64,000 bases of DNA from assembly GCA_012510495.1 (NCBI GenBank), contig JAAZHX010000109.1:1-64000 (forward strand), written 5' to 3'. The translations under genes and the position numbers were made by a program. The stretch is from Smithella sp. Lineage in GTDB: Bacteria > Desulfobacterota > Syntrophia > Syntrophales > Smithellaceae. A model generated the notes under the pieces. That model had not been told where the DNA came from. It made no database searches and worked only from the letters and a program-made list of their open reading frames with translations. Numbering within the stretch: the first letter of the stretch is position 1; each line of letters starts with the position of its first letter. Of this stretch, positions 13,640-55,296 are shown in pieces.

Positions 13640-13740
13640 GAATGCGTGGAAACCGCCACTCCCTACGCCGGCATTATCCGGGTCAGGTTCAAAGGGTATA
13701 TTCTCAGCCGCGACTTGAAATCGCGGCACCCCGCGTGTAA
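13640..13740 (-). promoter_or_regulatory. TPP riboswitch (THI element)
   Basis: Reading the minus strand, all conserved parts are in order: GCGGGGTGCC, a perfect P3 stem (GCCGCGA and TCGCGGC), GGCTGAGA, ACCCTTTGAACCTGA, CCGGATAATGCCGG and CGTAGGGA. The thiN start codon follows about 60 bases later. Binding of TPP should reduce expression of thiN-thiD-thiC. No clear downstream terminator was seen, so translational control is the more likely mode; this is inference. P1 boundaries are approximate. Confidence 0.95.
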
Positions 13741-13784
13741 AAGTAATACATTGACCGTTAAAAAGCAACGGAATAAATCATCGT

Positions 13785-46734: not shown

Positions 46735-47922
46735 CTACTCCTTTTGTGATGATATTTCTTCGTCGGTCAGATAGCAGGCGGGATCCGGTCCCCAGACGTC
46801 GCCCGCCGACTCGGCCCGCGCCCGAAAGTTCCCGCCGCACACGGAAAGCCACACGCACGTCGCGCAGCGGCCGGTAACGTGTTTCTTTTTTTCTTTCAGT
46901 TTCATCAGAAATTCATTTTTTTCATCAGTCCAGATTTCGCTGAAGGGCCGCTTCCGGACATTGCCCAGCGGCCGGTTGCGCCAGAACTGATCGGGATACA
47001 CCTCGCCGTCCCAGCTGATACAGCCGATACCGACACCGGTGGAATTGCCCTCGTTCATTTCCAGGAGCTCCAGGATTTCCGCCGCGCGCGCCGGGTCTTT
47101 TTCCTTCATCTTCAGATACAGGTAAGGCCCGTCGGCATGATTGTCCACCGTGAGGATTTCGGGCGCCAGGCCGTCGTCAAACATGGCCTTGGTCCGGTCG
47201 GCGATGAGATCCAGCAGACGGCGGGACTCCTCATGCGCCAGGTCTTCGTCGCGGAGCTTCGAACCGCGGCCGGAATAAACCAGGTGGTAAAAGCACATCC
47301 GTTCGATTTTTTCTTTTCTGAGCAGGTCGAACATGGCCGGCACATCGGCCGCGTTGTGGCGATTGACGGTGAAGCGCAGGCCCACCTTGATGCCTGCTTC
47401 CCGGCAGTTGCGGATGCCTTCCATGGCTTTTTCAAACGCGCCTTTCATGCCCCGGAACCGGTCGTGCGTCGGCTGCAAACCGTCGAGGCTCACGCCGACG
47501 TACGACAGCCCGATTTTTTTGAATTCCGCTGCGATTTCTTTGGTAATAAGCGTACCGTTGGTGGAGATGACCGCGCGCAGCCCCCTGTCCGTCGCGTACT
47601 TTGCCAGTTCGAGCAAATCCTTCCGCATCAGCGGTTCGCCGCCGGAAAATAAAATCACCGGTGATCCGAAAGCCGCCAGATCGTCGATCATGGCCTTCCC
47701 TTCTTCCGTGGTCATCTCATCGGGATAATCGACATTCGCCGAGCTGGAATAACAGTGGATGCATTTGAGGTTGCAGCGGCGCGTCATGTTCCAGACCACC
47801 ACCGGCTTCTTGTCCGCCGAAAATTGCAGCAGATGCGACGGCAGCCGGCCCGAGTGCCGGTTGTAGCGCAACACATCGGAAGGCTCCACCGCCCCGCAAT
47901 ACAGTTTGGAAATGCCGATCAT
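46735..47922 (-). CDS. ahbC: Radical-SAM Fe-coproporphyrin III synthase AhbC-type
   Basis: The 395-residue product begins MIGISKLYCGAVEPSDVLRY, a hallmark of the AhbC/NirJ-like group. The radical-SAM cluster is TRRCNLKCIHCYSSS, with LFSGGEPLMRKD and GVSLDGLQPTHDRFRG. The SPASM-like C-terminus reads CATCVWLSVCGGNFRARA with a further PDPAC. AhbC removes two acetate side chains of didecarboxysiroheme to give Fe-coproporphyrin III, the substrate of AhbD. The start overlaps the end of cobA-hemD by four bases (ATGA). Confidence 0.88.
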   Translation of the reverse strand: MIGISKLYCGAVEPSDVLRYNRHSGRLPSHLLQFSADKKPVVVWNMTRRCNLKCIHCYSSSANVDYPDEMTTEEGKAMIDDLAAFGSPVILFSGGEPLMRKDLLELAKYATDRGLRAVISTNGTLITKEIAAEFKKIGLSYVGVSLDGLQPTHDRFRGMKGAFEKAMEGIRNCREAGIKVGLRFTVNRHNAADVPAMFDLLRKEKIERMCFYHLVYSGRGSKLRDEDLAHEESRRLLDLIADRTKAMFDDGLAPEILTVDNHADGPYLYLKMKEKDPARAAEILELLEMNEGNSTGVGIGCISWDGEVYPDQFWRNRPLGNVRKRPFSEIWTDEKNEFLMKLKEKKKHVTGRCATCVWLSVCGGNFRARAESAGDVWGPDPACYLTDEEISSQKE

Positions 47923-49451
47923 GGGTGATCCTTTCCTTTCGGTTGCTGAAAGTGATCGACCAGCGTCCGAATCAGTCCTTCCATCGTGTATTCGCGCTGC
48001 AGGATGTCGATTTTGAATCCCGCCTTTGCGGCGGTCCCGGCCGTTACCGGACCGATGCAGGCCACGCTGACGGAAGGCGGCAGTATAAAATCCTTTCCCA
48101 TGATGTCCACAAAATTCGTCACGGTGGAGGAACTGGTAAACGTGATGACATCCACCTCACCCGCCGCAAGCCGCCGGGCCAGCTCTTCTTTTTTCCTGCC
48201 GGAATTCACCGTCCGGTAGGCGGTTGCCACCGTGACGCGCGCTCCCTGCTCCTGGAGCGTCCGGGGAAGAATATCGCGGGCCTTGGCCGCGCGCGGAATC
48301 AGGATTTTCTGAGACCGAATATCCATGGCGGCAAAGGACTTCAAAATGCCTTCCGCAATAAACTCCTGCGGCACCAGATCGACCCGGATACCCCGGTCTT
48401 CCAACTGTCTGGCTGTAGCCGGACCGATGCAGCAGATTTTGACGCCCTTGAGATCGCGCACATCCCCGCTTTTTTGCTGCATGCGCTCGAAAAAGAAGCG
48501 CACGCCGTTGGCGCTGGTGAAAATGAGCCACTGGTAAGATTCCAGCTCGGCCAGCGCCGCGTCGAGTTCGCTCCAGTCGGACGGCGGTTCGATGGCGATG
48601 GTTGGAAACGCGATCGGCCGCGCGCCTTCAGCCGCGAGAAGCTTCGCCAGGTCGTCGGCCTGCCGCTGGGGCCGCGTGATGACAATGCCCCTGCCAAAAA
48701 GCGGCCTGGCGTCGAACCAGCCCAGTGTGTCGCGTAATTCCACCACGGGCCCGACCACCAGAACAGCGGGCGGTTTGAATCTGTTGGCGCGGGCCAGTTC
48801 CTCAATGTTCGCCAGCGTGCCCGTCAGCGTTTGCTGCTCAGGCAGCGTGCCCCGGCGAATCAAAGCCGCCGGTGTCTCAGGAGATTTTCCGCGCGAGATC
48901 AATGCGTCGGTAATCTGGCCAAGATTCTTCACGCCCATCAGAAACACCAGCGTTCCAATGCCCGCAAGCGCCTGCCAGTCGATGTCGCTTTTTTCCTTGG
49001 TCGGATCTTCATGGCCGGTAACAAACGCCACCGTGGAGGTGAGCCCCCGGTGCGTGAGCGGTATGCCCGCATAAGCCGGCGCCGCGATGGCGGAGGTTAC
49101 GCCGGGAATCACTTCAAAAGGAATGCCGCGGGCGGCCAGTTCTTCCGCTTCCTCGCCGCCGCGACCGAAGATAAAGGGATCACCGCCCTTGAGGCGCGCG
49201 ACCGTGCGACCGTCCAGGGCCTCCCGGACCAGAAGGTCGTTGATTTTGTCCTGCGTCAGCGTGTGGTCTCCCCCCTGTTTGCCCGCATAGATTCTGCGCG
49301 CGTGCCCCGGCGTGTATTGGAGCAGCTCTTCATTGACCAAGTTGTCGTAAACCACCACATCGGCAAGCTTCAGGGCCTTCACTGCCTTGAGTGTGATGAG
49401 GCTCGGGTCTCCCGGCCCCGCTCCGATGATATAAACCTTGGCTTTTTTCAT
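47919..49451 (-). CDS. cobA-hemD: Uroporphyrinogen-III C-methyltransferase / uroporphyrinogen-III synthase fusion
   Basis: The 510-residue fusion first has the SAM-dependent methyltransferase CobA (YIIGAGPGDPSLITLKA, VARLKGGDPFIFGRGGEEAEEL, GIPLTHRG) up to about residue 245, then HemD (IVITRPQRQADDLAKLLAAEG, WLIFTSANGVRFFFERM, TFTSSSTVTNFVDI). HemD cyclises hydroxymethylbilane to uroporphyrinogen III, which CobA methylates to precorrin-2, the entry to siroheme. The fusion is common in Firmicutes and deltaproteobacteria. It lies between hemC and ahbC. Confidence 0.96.
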   Translation of the reverse strand: MKKAKVYIIGAGPGDPSLITLKAVKALKLADVVVYDNLVNEELLQYTPGHARRIYAGKQGGDHTLTQDKINDLLVREALDGRTVARLKGGDPFIFGRGGEEAEELAARGIPFEVIPGVTSAIAAPAYAGIPLTHRGLTSTVAFVTGHEDPTKEKSDIDWQALAGIGTLVFLMGVKNLGQITDALISRGKSPETPAALIRRGTLPEQQTLTGTLANIEELARANRFKPPAVLVVGPVVELRDTLGWFDARPLFGRGIVITRPQRQADDLAKLLAAEGARPIAFPTIAIEPPSDWSELDAALAELESYQWLIFTSANGVRFFFERMQQKSGDVRDLKGVKICCIGPATARQLEDRGIRVDLVPQEFIAEGILKSFAAMDIRSQKILIPRAAKARDILPRTLQEQGARVTVATAYRTVNSGRKKEELARRLAAGEVDVITFTSSSTVTNFVDIMGKDFILPPSVSVACIGPVTAGTAAKAGFKIDILQREYTMEGLIRTLVDHFQQPKGKDHP

Positions 49452-49452
49452 T

Positions 49453-50367
49453 TTACCCCATCAACTCCAGCAGACGGCGGCCGCCGTTTTCCAGGATCAT
49501 CTCCGCCAGCCTCCGGCCCATGGATTCGGCCTCATCCGGCTCGCCCCAGACCTTGTCGCGCAGCACTTCCCTTCCATTGGGCGCGGCCAGCAGGCCCTCC
49601 AGCGTCAGGCGTTTGCCTTCCATCAAACCGTAAGCGGCAATCGGCAAACGACAGCCGCCGCCCAGCGCCCGCAGATAGGCGCGCTCGGCCGTCACTTCCG
49701 TCGCGGTCACGGCATGGTTGAGTCGCGAGCAAAGCCCCGCCAGCTCCGCATCGCTTTTTCTCACCTGAAGTCCTAAAGCGCCCTGGCCCACCGCCGGCAG
49801 CATGATTTCCGTCGGCAAAAACTGGGTAACCGCTTCCCCGTAACCCAGTCGCTTCATACCCGCCGCGGCGAGCACCACGCCGGTGAGATTTTCCGTTTCG
49901 ATCTTTTTCAGGCGCGTGTCAATGTTGCCGCGCAGAGGAACAACCTCCAGATCCGGCATAAACGATTTCAACTGCGCGCCGCGCCGCTGGGAGCCGGTTC
50001 CGATTTTGGCCCCCTTGGGCAAATATTCAAATTTGACTCTGCCGCACGTCACCAAAACATCGCGGACATCCTCGCGGGGCAGAATTGCCGCAAAGACGAG
50101 CCCCTCCGGAATTTCTCCGGGAACGTCTTTCATGGAGTGAACAGCCAGGTCGATCTGACCGGCAAGAAGGGCCTCTTCCATTTCTTTGACAAAAACTCCC
50201 TGTCCGCCGATTGTCGCCAGAGAAACATCCTGCATAATATCGCCGCTGGTCCGGATGACGCAGATTTCCGCCTCAATCTCCGGCGCCGCTTTCTTCAGGC
50301 CGGCCACCGCGGAATTCGTCTGCGCCAACGCCAGTTTGCTTCCTCTTGTACCAACTTTAATCTTCAT
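49453..50367 (-). CDS. hemC: Hydroxymethylbilane synthase
   Basis: The 304-residue product shows KVGTRGSKLALAQT at the start, VHSMKDVPGEIPEG, RGNIDTRLKKIE and the cofactor-binding Cys in RALGGGCRLPIAAYG, which binds the dipyrromethane primer. It polymerises four porphobilinogen molecules. It stops one base before cobA-hemD. The promoter or leader contains the palindromic element 50396-50570. Confidence 0.97.
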   Translation of the reverse strand: MKIKVGTRGSKLALAQTNSAVAGLKKAAPEIEAEICVIRTSGDIMQDVSLATIGGQGVFVKEMEEALLAGQIDLAVHSMKDVPGEIPEGLVFAAILPREDVRDVLVTCGRVKFEYLPKGAKIGTGSQRRGAQLKSFMPDLEVVPLRGNIDTRLKKIETENLTGVVLAAAGMKRLGYGEAVTQFLPTEIMLPAVGQGALGLQVRKSDAELAGLCSRLNHAVTATEVTAERAYLRALGGGCRLPIAAYGLMEGKRLTLEGLLAAPNGREVLRDKVWGEPDEAESMGRRLAEMILENGGRRLLELMG

Positions 50368-50395
50368 CTTTTACCTTTCATTCCTGTTCGCAGCA

Positions 50396-50570
50396 GTTGA
50401 ATTGGGGCATCCGCTGAGCGAATATCCCCGAAATGCTGCGGCTCTCAGCGAAATGGAGCATCAGGCAGCCGAACTGTTTGAGCCCGAAGGGCGAGTTTTC
50501 GGCTGCCGCGCAATGAGCGCTAGAGCCGCCATTGCAGGGAATTCTGAGCGAAGGGATGCCCCTTCAATTG
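50396..50570. repeat. MITE-like imperfect palindrome of about 175 bp between hemA and hemC
   Basis: The two ends are inverted copies (GTTGAATTGGGGCATCC at 50396-50412 against GGATGCCCC and TTCAATTG at 50554-50570). Further in, GCAGCCGAA (50465) faces TTCGGCTGC (50498), with CCCGAAGGG near the centre, and GCGGCTCT faces AGAGCCGC. There is no coding capacity. The nested symmetry suggests a non-autonomous transposable element or a REP-type repeat inserted into the heme operon. Confidence 0.7.
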
Positions 50571-50581
50571 CCGTATCTTCT

Positions 50582-51856
50582 TCAATCATCCAGCCGGAAA
50601 AGCTGACGGGCCACCGCCACAATATCCTGTGAGGCAAATTCGGCGCTTTCCTCTTTCATCACCGCCACCGGCGCGTGCAGCATCTTATTGACGATGCCGT
50701 GAACCAGGGCTTCGACTTTTTCGCGGTCTGCGTTTTCCAGATTTTCCATCCAGCCGGATGCTTTCTCCATTTCCGTCCGCACAATGCCTTCGGCCTTGTT
50801 CCTGAGCGATACGATGGTGGGCACCGCCTCCAGCTCCTTGAGCCAGTTCGTGTAATTGGCCACTTCTTCTTCGATGATTGCTTCGGCTTTCAGCGCCTCG
50901 CGCCGCCGGTTTTTGATGTTTTCATCGACAATGTCCTGTAAGTTGTCGATGTTGTAAAGATAGACGTTTTCAACGCCGTCCGCCGCCGGATCAATGTCCC
51001 GCGGCACGGCAATATCGACCAGAAACAGCAAACGGTTCTTCCGCTTGCGCAGACAGCGCCTCACCATCTCTCCGGTCACGACATACGACGGCGCGCCGGT
51101 GGAACTGATGACAATATCGGCATCGCACAGCGCTTCGTCAAGTTCCCCCCATCCCCTGGCTGCGCCGTGAAACTTTTCGGCAAGCAGCCGGGCCTGGTCC
51201 GGCGACCGGTTGACGACGGTAATGTCCTCCGCGCCGTTGCCCGCCAGGTGCGTGCAGGTCAACTCCGCCATTTCACCGGCGCCGATGATCAGAATCTTCC
51301 TGCCGGCAAGTGTTCCAAAAATTTTCTTGGCCAGTTCCACCGCGGCAAAGCTCACCGACACGGGGTTGGCGGCAATGCCCGTCTCCGCCCGGACGCGTTT
51401 GGCCGTGCGAAATGCGCGGTGCATCAGGCGGTTGAGCGCGACGCCGGTGGCGTTTTGCGCCAGCGCCAGCCGGTAGGCGTCCTTCACCTGCCCCAGGATC
51501 TGCGCCTCGCCCATCACCAGCGAATCCAGGCTGGATGTCACGCGGAACAAATGCCGGATCGCCTCCCGGTCCCGATAGGTGTACAGACAGGCTGCGGCTT
51601 CTTCGTCCGCAAGGCCGCCGTAACGCGCCAGAAAAGATTCGAGCTCATCCAGCGCCCGCGGCGCGTCCTCCAGGGAGGCCACCAGCTCCACGCGGTTGCA
51701 GGTGGAAAGATGAAGAATCTCCAGCACACCGCCGATCGACCTGAGATCGCCCAGCAGGTCCGCCTGCTCCTGGCATGCGGCAAAAAGTCTTTCGCGCACG
51801 GCCAGCGGCGCTGTTTTATGATTTAATCCGACCAGTCCGATCATGGTTTCTTTCAA
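50582..51856 (-). CDS. hemA: Glutamyl-tRNA reductase
   Basis: The 424-residue enzyme has the N-terminal VGLNHKTAPLAVRERL, the active-site Cys in LHLSTCNRVELVA, the Rossmann segment GRKILIIGAGEMAELTCTHL and VISSTGAPSYVVTGEMV. It reduces Glu-tRNA to glutamate semialdehyde, the first step of C5 tetrapyrrole synthesis. hemL, the next enzyme, is not in the window. The start overlaps the end of the upstream ccsA-type gene by four bases (ATGA). Confidence 0.97.
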   Translation of the reverse strand: MKETMIGLVGLNHKTAPLAVRERLFAACQEQADLLGDLRSIGGVLEILHLSTCNRVELVASLEDAPRALDELESFLARYGGLADEEAAACLYTYRDREAIRHLFRVTSSLDSLVMGEAQILGQVKDAYRLALAQNATGVALNRLMHRAFRTAKRVRAETGIAANPVSVSFAAVELAKKIFGTLAGRKILIIGAGEMAELTCTHLAGNGAEDITVVNRSPDQARLLAEKFHGAARGWGELDEALCDADIVISSTGAPSYVVTGEMVRRCLRKRKNRLLFLVDIAVPRDIDPAADGVENVYLYNIDNLQDIVDENIKNRRREALKAEAIIEEEVANYTNWLKELEAVPTIVSLRNKAEGIVRTEMEKASGWMENLENADREKVEALVHGIVNKMLHAPVAVMKEESAEFASQDIVAVARQLFRLDD

Positions 51857-52677
51857 ATAAAATTATGCACAGTTGCCAGGCAAAACCGTATTCCAATCGC
51901 CGCTAATAAAAAGGCGATCAACCCAAGGCAGGACAACACCGCCATCCGGGAACCCTTCCAACCGATAGCCAGCCGCTGATGCAGCAGAAAACCGTAAAAC
52001 ACCCAGACGGCAAAGGACCAGATCACCTTGGGATCGGCGGGCCAGGAGCCGCCCCAGACAAAAGCGGCATAAACAGCCCCCCCGATCATGCCGAGAGTCA
52101 GCAGAGGAAACCCCCACAGCAATCCGAAGTGGTTGATTTGGTCGAGGTCGCCAAGCGACGGCAGCAGACGCCCCAGCGGGCCCGGTTTTTTATTTTTCAG
52201 AAGATTATTCTGAATCAGAAACATCGCCCCGGCCGCTGAAGCAAGAACAAACAGCGCTTCGCCGGCAATCGCCAGCACTAGGTGCAGCGTCGTCAGTCCG
52301 CCCTGCCACTGGGACGGCACAAGATTTTTATCCGATCCCTGGCCGGCTGCGGCAATCATAAACAACAGAATAAACGGAGCAATAAAAGCGCCCAGCAGAC
52401 GGGTTTTCGTTTTCAACTGTAGGCCCAGATAGATGCCGACAATCACCCAGGCGTAAATCGACAGGAAATGGCGCGAACCGAAACTGCTCCAGCCGGCCCA
52501 GTGGGCAGCCGCGAAAAGAAGATACAGATTCAGAACGATAAATCCGGCCGTCAGGATCCATGTGGATATTCTGGCCAGCGCCACTCTCCGGACCAGAAGA
52601 GAAAGCAGATAGCCTGCGGTGGCCAGCGCGAAGCAAAACAGTGCCGGCGCGAACAGCATTCCTTCAGCGCTGGTCAA
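51853..52677 (-). CDS. CcsA/HemX-type cytochrome c assembly membrane protein
   Basis: A TTG start at 52677 with AGGAGG six bases upstream gives 274 residues (a downstream ATG has no room for a Shine-Dalgarno). About eight membrane helices are predicted, with WAGWSSFGSRHFLSIYAWVIVGIYLGLQ, a His in TLHLVLAIAGEALF, and VWGGSWPADPKVIWSFAVW matching the WxxWxWDPKE-type tryptophan-rich loop of CcsA/CcmC heme handlers. In heme clusters such genes (HemX) affect GluTR levels or heme export. It overlaps the precorrin-2 dehydrogenase gene by 14 bases. Confidence 0.85.
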   Translation of the reverse strand: MTSAEGMLFAPALFCFALATAGYLLSLLVRRVALARISTWILTAGFIVLNLYLLFAAAHWAGWSSFGSRHFLSIYAWVIVGIYLGLQLKTKTRLLGAFIAPFILLFMIAAAGQGSDKNLVPSQWQGGLTTLHLVLAIAGEALFVLASAAGAMFLIQNNLLKNKKPGPLGRLLPSLGDLDQINHFGLLWGFPLLTLGMIGGAVYAAFVWGGSWPADPKVIWSFAVWVFYGFLLHQRLAIGWKGSRMAVLSCLGLIAFLLAAIGIRFCLATVHNFI

Positions 52678-53305
52678 TGCGCACCTCCTCGCCCGTAACT
52701 TCGCGGACGATTTTTTTTGCCGCGTCAGCATCTTTTTGCCGGAGGCTCTCCAGCAGACCGGCCGCCATCAACTGATCAAACCAGGTCCGGCCGCGGCCGG
52801 CATTCTTTTCCATCCGGCCCCGGAGCTGCCCCAGAATATCCAGCAGCGCCGCGTATTCTTCGCCGTAGGCGGCTTCCAGCTCCTCCCGCAAACGCCGAGC
52901 CAGCGCCGGGGAATTCCCTCCGGTGCCGCAGGCGATGGTCAAATCTCCCCGCTCCACCAGAGAAGGCAAAATAAAATCGCATTTTTGCGGGTCATCCACG
53001 ATGTTGACGGGAATGCCCCTGGCCTTTGCGTCCCGGGATATGGAGGCGTTGATTTCTTCGTCATCCGTCGCCCCGATCACCAGAGCGGCGCCGGACAGAT
53101 GCTCGTTTGCATAGTCACAGGCCACATGCCCGATGTGGCCCTGTTTCTTTAAATCCGCCAATTCGGGAACAAGGAGGGGACTCACCACGTGAACCGCCGC
53201 CCCGCAATGAAGAAGACGGGCAACTTTTCTGGCCGCAACATCTCCTCCGCCGATGACAACACATTTCTTCCCTGCAATGTCCCAAAATACCGGATAATAT
53301 TTCAA
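52664..53305 (-). CDS. Precorrin-2 dehydrogenase / sirohydrochlorin ferrochelatase (Met8-like)
   Basis: A TTG start at 53305 with AAAGGA six bases upstream gives 213 residues beginning MKYYPVFWDIAGKKCVVIGGG, which fits the family start. The NAD-binding GGGDVAARKVARLL, ALVIGATDDEEINASISRDAK and ACGTGGNSPALARRLREELE follow. It oxidises precorrin-2 to sirohydrochlorin and, in Met8 proteins, inserts iron to give siroheme, the substrate of the Ahb pathway. An upstream frame extension from 53383 is not supported. Confidence 0.92.
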   Translation of the reverse strand: MKYYPVFWDIAGKKCVVIGGGDVAARKVARLLHCGAAVHVVSPLLVPELADLKKQGHIGHVACDYANEHLSGAALVIGATDDEEINASISRDAKARGIPVNIVDDPQKCDFILPSLVERGDLTIACGTGGNSPALARRLREELEAAYGEEYAALLDILGQLRGRMEKNAGRGRTWFDQLMAAGLLESLRQKDADAAKKIVREVTGEEVRIDQR

Positions 53306-53515
53306 GTTTTTCCTTTCAGGCCCAACCGGAAGCGGCATTGTGCCATGGACGGTAAAGTTAACATGAAGGGTTGCAAAATTCAAGCGGGGGTTTGCCGGTG
53401 CTGTTTTTTCATCTAGCCGGAATCAGTTACTTATTGACACTGCCGCCGCTTTGCGTTTATGGTTTTTTACAAATGCGGCAAAGGCAGCAAAAATATTTCA
53501 AAGGAAACCGTCAAC

Positions 53516-54715: not shown

Positions 54716-54731
54716 TCGAAGGAGACGGCGC

Positions 54732-55079
54732 ATGAAAGTCGATTTTTACTGCTGGAGCCAGTGAACGACCTGCCGGAAAGCAAGGGAGTTTCTCTTGCAG
54801 AAGAAGGCGGAGCTGACCGAGCGTGATTTTTTCAAAAATCCCTTTACCGCAGACGAGATCAAGGCGCTGCTTGCGGGAAGCAAACCTTCGGAAATGTTTA
54901 ATTTTCGAAGCCCCAGTTTCAAAAAGCTGTCCCTGGACCCGGAGGACCTCCAGAACCAGGATTTGATCGAACAGATGCTGAAAGAGCCGCGGCTCATCCG
55001 CCGCCCGGTCGTGAAAATCGGCGGCAAAGTTTACTTCGGTGCTTCCGCGAAAAAGCTAGCGGACATCGTCAAGGCGTGA
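54732..55079 (+). CDS. Putative selenocysteine-containing ArsC/Spx-family protein (in-frame TGA at 54762)
   Basis: An ATG at 54732 has AAGGAG seven bases upstream and opens a frame of 115 codons interrupted only by TGA at 54762-54764 (codon 11). The translated sequence reads MKVDFYCWSQ, then the TGA, then TTCRKAREFLLQKKAELTER, and later FNFRSPSFKKLSLD and EEPRLIRRPVVKIGGKVYFG (here KEPRLIRRP). This is the ArsC/Spx/YffB family, whose first redox Cys of the CXXC-like motif falls exactly at the TGA, giving U-T-T-C. A hairpin of the bacterial SECIS kind lies 15-34 bases downstream. Without Sec incorporation the only product would be the C-terminal 94 residues from a TTG at 54795, without the active-site Cys and without a Shine-Dalgarno. 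A nonsense-mutated pseudogene cannot be excluded. Confidence 0.75.
54780..54798 (+). promoter_or_regulatory. Candidate bacterial SECIS hairpin
   Basis: Seven base pairs, GCAAGGG with CTCTTGC (one G-U wobble), close a five-base loop AGUUU. The apical loop begins 22 bases after the TGA, within the range known for bacterial SECIS elements, and has G as its second base followed by U, as the consensus asks. The hairpin lies inside the coding frame, as bacterial SECIS elements do. Confidence 0.6.
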
Positions 55080-55083
55080 AAAG

Positions 55084-55296
55084 AGCCGGTTCGCCGCGCT
55101 CATGATGGACCACGCGCGCAAAGGATCCACGCTGGTCAGCCGCTACGGCGGCGAAGAGTTCATCCTGCTCCTGCCCGATTCTCGCGTGGAGGAAGCGCGC
55201 CGTACCGGATATAACCTTATAAACTTCGGAGCGCCGTCGATGCCGGATGACCTTCCGCACCGGAAATCCACGGGCGTTTTTGTGTGCCGGGTATGA
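55084..55296 (+). pseudogene. GGDEF (diguanylate cyclase) remnant
   Basis: The frame reads ALMMDHARKGSTLVSRYGGEEF then ILLLPDSRVEEARRTG, which is the A-loop and neighbouring strands of a diguanylate cyclase (RYGGEEF). Neither the rest of the domain nor a start exists, and the tail after EEARRTG is unrelated. About 40 residues of the domain remain. It sits between the ArsC-like gene and the hexokinase start and ends inside the hexokinase N-terminus. Confidence 0.7.

Follow-up and report, generated by a model that had tools for sequence, protein, structure and literature searches.

A predicted selenocysteine-containing clade of the ArsC/Spx superfamily in Smithella and its relatives

A gene in the Smithella sp. 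window (the whole 64,000-nucleotide stretch of DNA analysed here) most probably encodes a selenoprotein of the ArsC/Spx superfamily, a joint claim to which a probability of roughly 0.9 is assigned. The gene (54732..55079, forward strand) comprises 115 codons, the eleventh of which is UGA, plus a terminal TGA. The first-pass annotation had proposed a selenoprotein here from the sequence alone, and this reading is supported by the TGA shared by all 39 close relatives that keep the site (window included), by the selenocysteine (Sec) genes found in the same assembly and by the selection acting on the codons that follow, from which we infer Sec insertion. Considered separately and from the sequence comparisons, insertion of Sec at the UGA of codon 11 appears nearly certain.

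Structure of the gene and conservation of its in-frame TGA

The reading frame (54732-55079) opens with an ATG at 54732 and closes with a TGA at 55077-55079, its sole internal stop being the TGA of codon 11 (54762..54764, forward strand), a putative Sec codon on the basis of its conservation and of the Sec genes in the assembly. Read directly from the sequence, a Shine-Dalgarno motif (AGGAG; 54720..54724, forward strand) lies 7 nt 5' of the ATG. Both the upstream signals and the single stop, placed at a U-T-T-C motif within an otherwise intact 115-codon family gene, were as first annotated. The read-through product of 115 residues begins MKVDFYCWSQUTTCRKA..., with the U-T-T-C motif at codons 11-14. 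Mechanical ORF calling yields a product of 94 amino acids that begins 3' of the TGA at a TTG (54795), and the active site of the selenoprotein is thus easily missed. In the alignment of 38 members, codon 7 (Cys; 54750..54752, forward strand), codon 11 and codon 14 (the second Cys of the U-x-x-C motif; 54771..54773, forward strand) are invariant, with C7, U11 and C14 forming a C-x3-U-x2-C signature in 38/38 sequences.

The close clade, counted once per genome, comprises 39 genes keeping the codon 11 site (34 from the class of the window and five from Chloroflexota), and TGA occupies this codon in all 39. Scanning of named genomes yielded eight relatives, seven of which have TGA at codon 11. These include three Smithellaceae/Syntrophaceae MAGs and four Dehalococcoidia MAGs, one of the latter being frameshifted further 3'. 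The eighth relative (L027; 31 % identity) has Cys at residue 11, within the motif C-A-G-N. The closest relative found belongs to a Smithellaceae MAG (L020), and the identical protein is encoded by G068, a genome of the same genus as the window. Matches were obtained in 35/155 genomes of the class, 34 with TGA and one decayed (G131). The Spx/MgsR model (E <= 1e-7) matched the same 35 of the 155 class genomes and none besides, and no Cys-type relative was seen in the class at this threshold. The function of the Sec form is thus open to direct test, as no Cys stand-in was seen in these 155 genomes. Among 400 Chloroflexota genomes 45 had matches (three close-clade and 42 more distant), and among 395 genomes of the phylum of the window fifteen had matches (eight close-clade and seven distant). 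Decayed copies of the gene occur in two genomes: that of G131 (L062), a fortieth close-clade copy standing outside the 39, has lost the Sec site, and that of G161 (L026/L067) has a frameshift 3' of the TGA. Both L026 and L062 were excluded from the alignment and trees, and the hairpin counts given below include L026 and exclude L062.

Thirty-four distant relatives (L068-L094 and L096-L102) were fetched, of which 27 have an in-frame TGA at the UxxC/UxxS-like place and seven have Cys at the site. The residue had first been read as one that is normally Cys in this family, and Cys was indeed found there in these seven and in L027; Cys at the codon 11 position was found solely among distant relatives. 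In a midpoint-rooted tree of 72 proteins (116 columns), the close clade falls on one side of a single branch with support of 95/94, and the Sec/Cys state undergoes four changes across the 38 close-clade Sec proteins and the 27 Sec and seven Cys proteins of the distant set. The close clade spans two phyla, which in this midpoint-rooted tree suggests transfer between them.

The amino acid identity of members to the window protein ranges from 55 to 89 %. Comparison of the window with its nearest relative over codons 12-112 gave a dN of 0.060 and a dS of 0.48, and in 34/37 comparisons to the window dS was above 1 or saturated, with dN between 0.19 and 0.43. The low dN against the high dS indicates that the region 3' of the TGA is selected as protein, under purifying selection. 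A sequencing error, or a nonsense mutation in a gene undergoing decay, could have left such a TGA, and the two decayed copies provide a precedent for loss of the gene; however, the same TGA is kept in 39/39 copies retaining the site, the codons beyond it are under purifying selection, and this explanation has a negligible probability. One of the refutations named in the first-pass annotation, a TGA that is merely a chance nonsense codon in a gene undergoing decay, has thus not materialised. A change of the genetic code, with TGA read genome-wide as a sense codon (e.g. Trp), would likewise account for read-through of the in-frame TGA. It is, however, hardly credible, given that the terminal stops of the 39 close-clade genes comprise 17 TGA, 13 TAA and nine TAG (the TAG of L026 being the first stop past its frameshift), with TGA terminating the window gene and 16/38 other members and TAA or TAG the rest. 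Distant relatives, furthermore, have Cys at the place, and a tRNA-Sec and Sec genes are present. Genetic-code change and gene decay were both rejected on the stop-codon counts and conservation.

Selenocysteine machinery and a SECIS-like hairpin

The first-pass annotation had noted that the window contains no sel gene, and the matches over cut-off to selA, selB, selD and tRNA-Sec all lie on other contigs of the assembly (2.80 Mb, 332 contigs). Absence of this machinery from the genome had been named as a further ground for refutation, and the search recovered selA (595.2 bits; cut-off 267.9), selB (358 bits; cut-off 242.25), selD (367.2 bits; cut-off 125) and one tRNA-Sec over its gathering score (77.2 versus 47), all within the same assembly. 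The selD gene has an in-frame TGA of its own and reads SAG-U-ACK, in agreement with the UxxK motif that the accessible part of a recent review assigns to Sec-containing selenophosphate synthetase (PMC13188914). Among the 34 class genomes with TGA, selB was over cut-off in 31, the other three (G056, G057 and G062) being 67-83 % complete; in the assembly of L022, taken as G057, selB is in two pieces. It was also over cut-off in all four Dehalococcoidia genomes tested (G158-G161), and did not exceed it in G162, from which the Cys relative L027 comes. Within the class, selB is found in 141/155 genomes, and co-occurrence with selB there is thus weak evidence.

Bacterial Sec decoding relies on SelB and a hairpin, and the bacterial SECIS has a G within the first two bases of its loop. 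Just 3' of the UGA, the window gene has a SECIS-like hairpin (54780..54798, forward strand) with a G in this position, in which seven pairs (54780-54786 with 54792-54798) enclose the loop AGTTT (54787-54791). The seven pairs and the five-base loop with AGU had been annotated correctly, but the distance of 22 nt assigned to the hairpin is that from the TGA to the start of the 5-nt loop, the stem starting 15 nt 3' of the TGA. If functional, this hairpin would be bound by SelB with Sec-tRNA(Sec) when the ribosome arrives at the UGA, leading to insertion of Sec at residue 11.

All seven pairs are kept in 32/39 sequences, with pair 1 failing in six, and the loop starts with AGT in 39/39. Unaided RNAalifold prediction on the 39 sequences found six of the seven pairs, two of them with changes on both sides. 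In the alignment of 39 rows, 38 of them distinct, pairing is seen in 97.0 % of cells; shuffles give 91.7 % and slid registers 32.7-70.3 %. Both sides have changed in 29 cells, where shuffles average 9.3, and the covariation score is 0.351 compared to 0.231 in shuffles, neither value being reached by any of 500 shuffles; the count of two pairs with both-sided change is not unusual, being reached by 163/500. Each of the two co-varying pairs joins a synonymous position to one that alters the residue: Ala17 (GCA or GCG) covaries with residue 22, which is Leu (TTG) or Ser (TCG), and Leu21 (CTC or CTT) with residue 18, which is Arg (AGR) or Lys (AAR). When the window gene was recoded synonymously, one of 5000 recodings gave a hairpin scoring as well, in a scan that scores the window hairpin as eight pairs with a 3-nt loop. 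Across the 39 rows, 37 were matched by at most 17/300 recodings, the exceptions being L053 (140/300) and L058 (44/300). A tree-aware paired test had only two to three supported pairs, at which significance is unreachable, with none in the wrong direction. Folded on its own, the 45-nt sequence from the window has a different minimum-free-energy structure, from which the hairpin is absent, with an unremarkable z of -0.50. On the sequences compared, support for the candidate hairpin is comparative, not thermodynamic. In the distant set, leaving out L075 and L096, a G-loop hairpin with at least seven pairs in the allowed range is found in 18/26 TGA forms versus 1/6 Cys forms; many of the scores involved are not uncommon among recodings, and the contrast may be regarded as only suggestive.

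Family affiliation and candidate functions

The window protein matches the Pfam ArsC family (PF03960) with 60.6 bits, over the gathering score of 24. Its closest solved structures, by sequence, profile and fold, are those of Spx, and a fold search with a predicted model gave Spx and ArsC-like structures as the best matches, the AlphaFold model (7 rows) being weak (mean pLDDT 64.8) and used for fold class only. The plasmid collection contributed 1093 matching records, all below 60 % identity; annotations, where given among the best 15 of these, name Spx, ArsC/Spx/MgsR or ArsC proteins.

The combination of motif and family points to thiol chemistry at U11/C14, and the product would on balance be a selenol-based thiol/disulfide oxidoreductase rather than a regulator or an arsenate reductase. 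In the mechanism envisaged for this small ArsC/Spx-superfamily protein with its thioredoxin fold, U11 would attack the substrate and C14 would resolve the intermediate by forming a selenenylsulfide with U11. A putative extra thiol near the site may come from the invariant C7, which precedes U11 by four residues.

An Spx-like regulator, binding RNA polymerase and using a U11-C14 selenenylsulfide as a sensitive redox switch, would also be consistent with the Spx structures nearest to the protein. The Spx/MgsR model TIGR01617 (cut-off 75.05 bits) gives 70.8 bits for the window, and is passed by at least two other members (L032, 75.9; G015, 75.3), with one of the 155 class genomes over the cut-off; the alignment, furthermore, retains the RS and RRP stretches of Spx. 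TIGR01617-like proteins are, however, not all regulators. The dedicated Spx models NF002459, NF009210 and NF009885 are not reached (60.8, 44.3 and 36.2 bits versus 123, 159 and 152, respectively), and the protein has 115 residues compared to 131-132 in most Spx chains, with alignments ending before the Spx C-terminus. A regulatory role of this kind is considered unlikely. The fuller proposal of a Sec-based, RNA-polymerase-binding redox regulator in anaerobes, in which the selenenylsulfide would act as the switch and C7 as a third redox residue, appears slightly more doubtful. If true, it would describe a regulator seen so far in the Sec form only and common to the Smithellaceae, their order and the Dehalococcoidia. 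With respect to Bacillus Spx and the Spx/MgsR family, the CxxC of these proteins aligns with the UxxC of the window, but they have Cys instead of Sec and a longer C-terminus.

Glutaredoxin-dependent arsenate reductases carry an arsenate-binding arginine triad. A Sec-containing arsenate reductase of this kind would be in keeping with the Pfam ArsC match, and Sec-containing arsenate reductases are on record: the Sargasso Sea protein, as described in the accessible part of its report, shares with the window protein both the ArsC superfamily and a Sec within the redox motif, although its motif is UxxS and that of the window UxxC (PMC1088965). The dedicated model TIGR00014 is, however, not reached (44.2 versus 106.05 bits), and no arsenic-resistance family was found among the 20 neighbouring genes scanned against Pfam (two of the window and 18 of relatives, a minority of the neighbours in 29 loci; fifteen gave a family and five none). 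Arsenate reduction is accordingly thought a quite improbable function, and the oxidoreductase is retained as the tentatively preferred reading.

The domain cd03032 is presumably the Spx-type ArsC domain. ArsC-type selenoproteins with a UxxC motif were reported under this domain in 2008 as the GOS 'Arsenate reductase 2', with 42 Sec sequences in the table of that paper (PMC2398784), and to judge from the excerpts available, the window protein resembles these in being ArsC-type with UxxC. The GOS proteins derive from marine metagenome reads and are known here by description, not by sequence. In the accessible text of the 2026 review, the UxxC form is entered as arsenate reductase-like, under NF041106 'ArsC family (seleno)protein' (PMC13188914). 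This model (ArsC_rel_Se_1), as far as the partial text describes it, has the superfamily and the UxxC motif in common with the window protein, which scores 34 bits against its cut-off of 85 bits; L032 (36.5 bits) and L065 (33.3 bits) do not reach it either. At E <= 1e-5, 36 of the 38 clade members match, and the best E of 2.8e-11 places even the top match well under 85 bits, since an E of 6.5e-13 equals 49.2 bits elsewhere. Six distant TGA forms were compared with the same model, of which four score 20.6-40.7 bits against the cut-off of 85 and two miss an E of 0.001. The distant UxxC/CxxC relatives, found in Chloroflexota and in one family (f79) of the phylum of the window, share the superfamily and the site, but include some Cys forms and have Cys at -4 in none of 34 translations, whereas the window clade has Cys there. 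On the basis of its NF041106 score and the C-x3-U-x2-C signature, the clade is, in terms of sequence, a separate branch. No description of it was found among titles and abstract openings for selenocysteine with Spx, ArsC, Dehalococcoidia or Syntrophobacterales, a literature in which subscription journals are mostly uncovered. The clade is well supported as a new branch within a type of selenoprotein that ocean surveys had already brought to light. A clean clade is thus added to the bacterial selenoproteins, one in which the active site is readily overlooked and which the existing NCBIfam seleno-ArsC model does not reach.

Gene neighbourhood and other features of the window

No constant neighbour pointing to a substrate was found in the 29 loci, several of which end at contig ends. 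A DUF3783-type gene lies directly downstream in 5/29 loci (L059, L060, L108, L111 and L112) with a gap of 1-107 nt, the assignment being based on two members of the downstream family that match in Pfam, and is a possible partner of the selenoprotein. Furthermore, a NUDIX gene is present in two loci (L103 and L109) and a peroxiredoxin gene in one (L104) of the 29. Directly 3' of the window gene lies a short ORF (55102-55296, forward strand) with RYGGEEFILLLPD, which by eye resembles a GGDEF (diguanylate cyclase) remnant. Elsewhere in the window, a run of ORFs on the reverse strand (47919-53383) appears by eye to comprise heme/siroheme biosynthesis genes, and a TPP riboswitch is located at 13644-13743 on the same strand (63.4 bits; gathering score 54.3).
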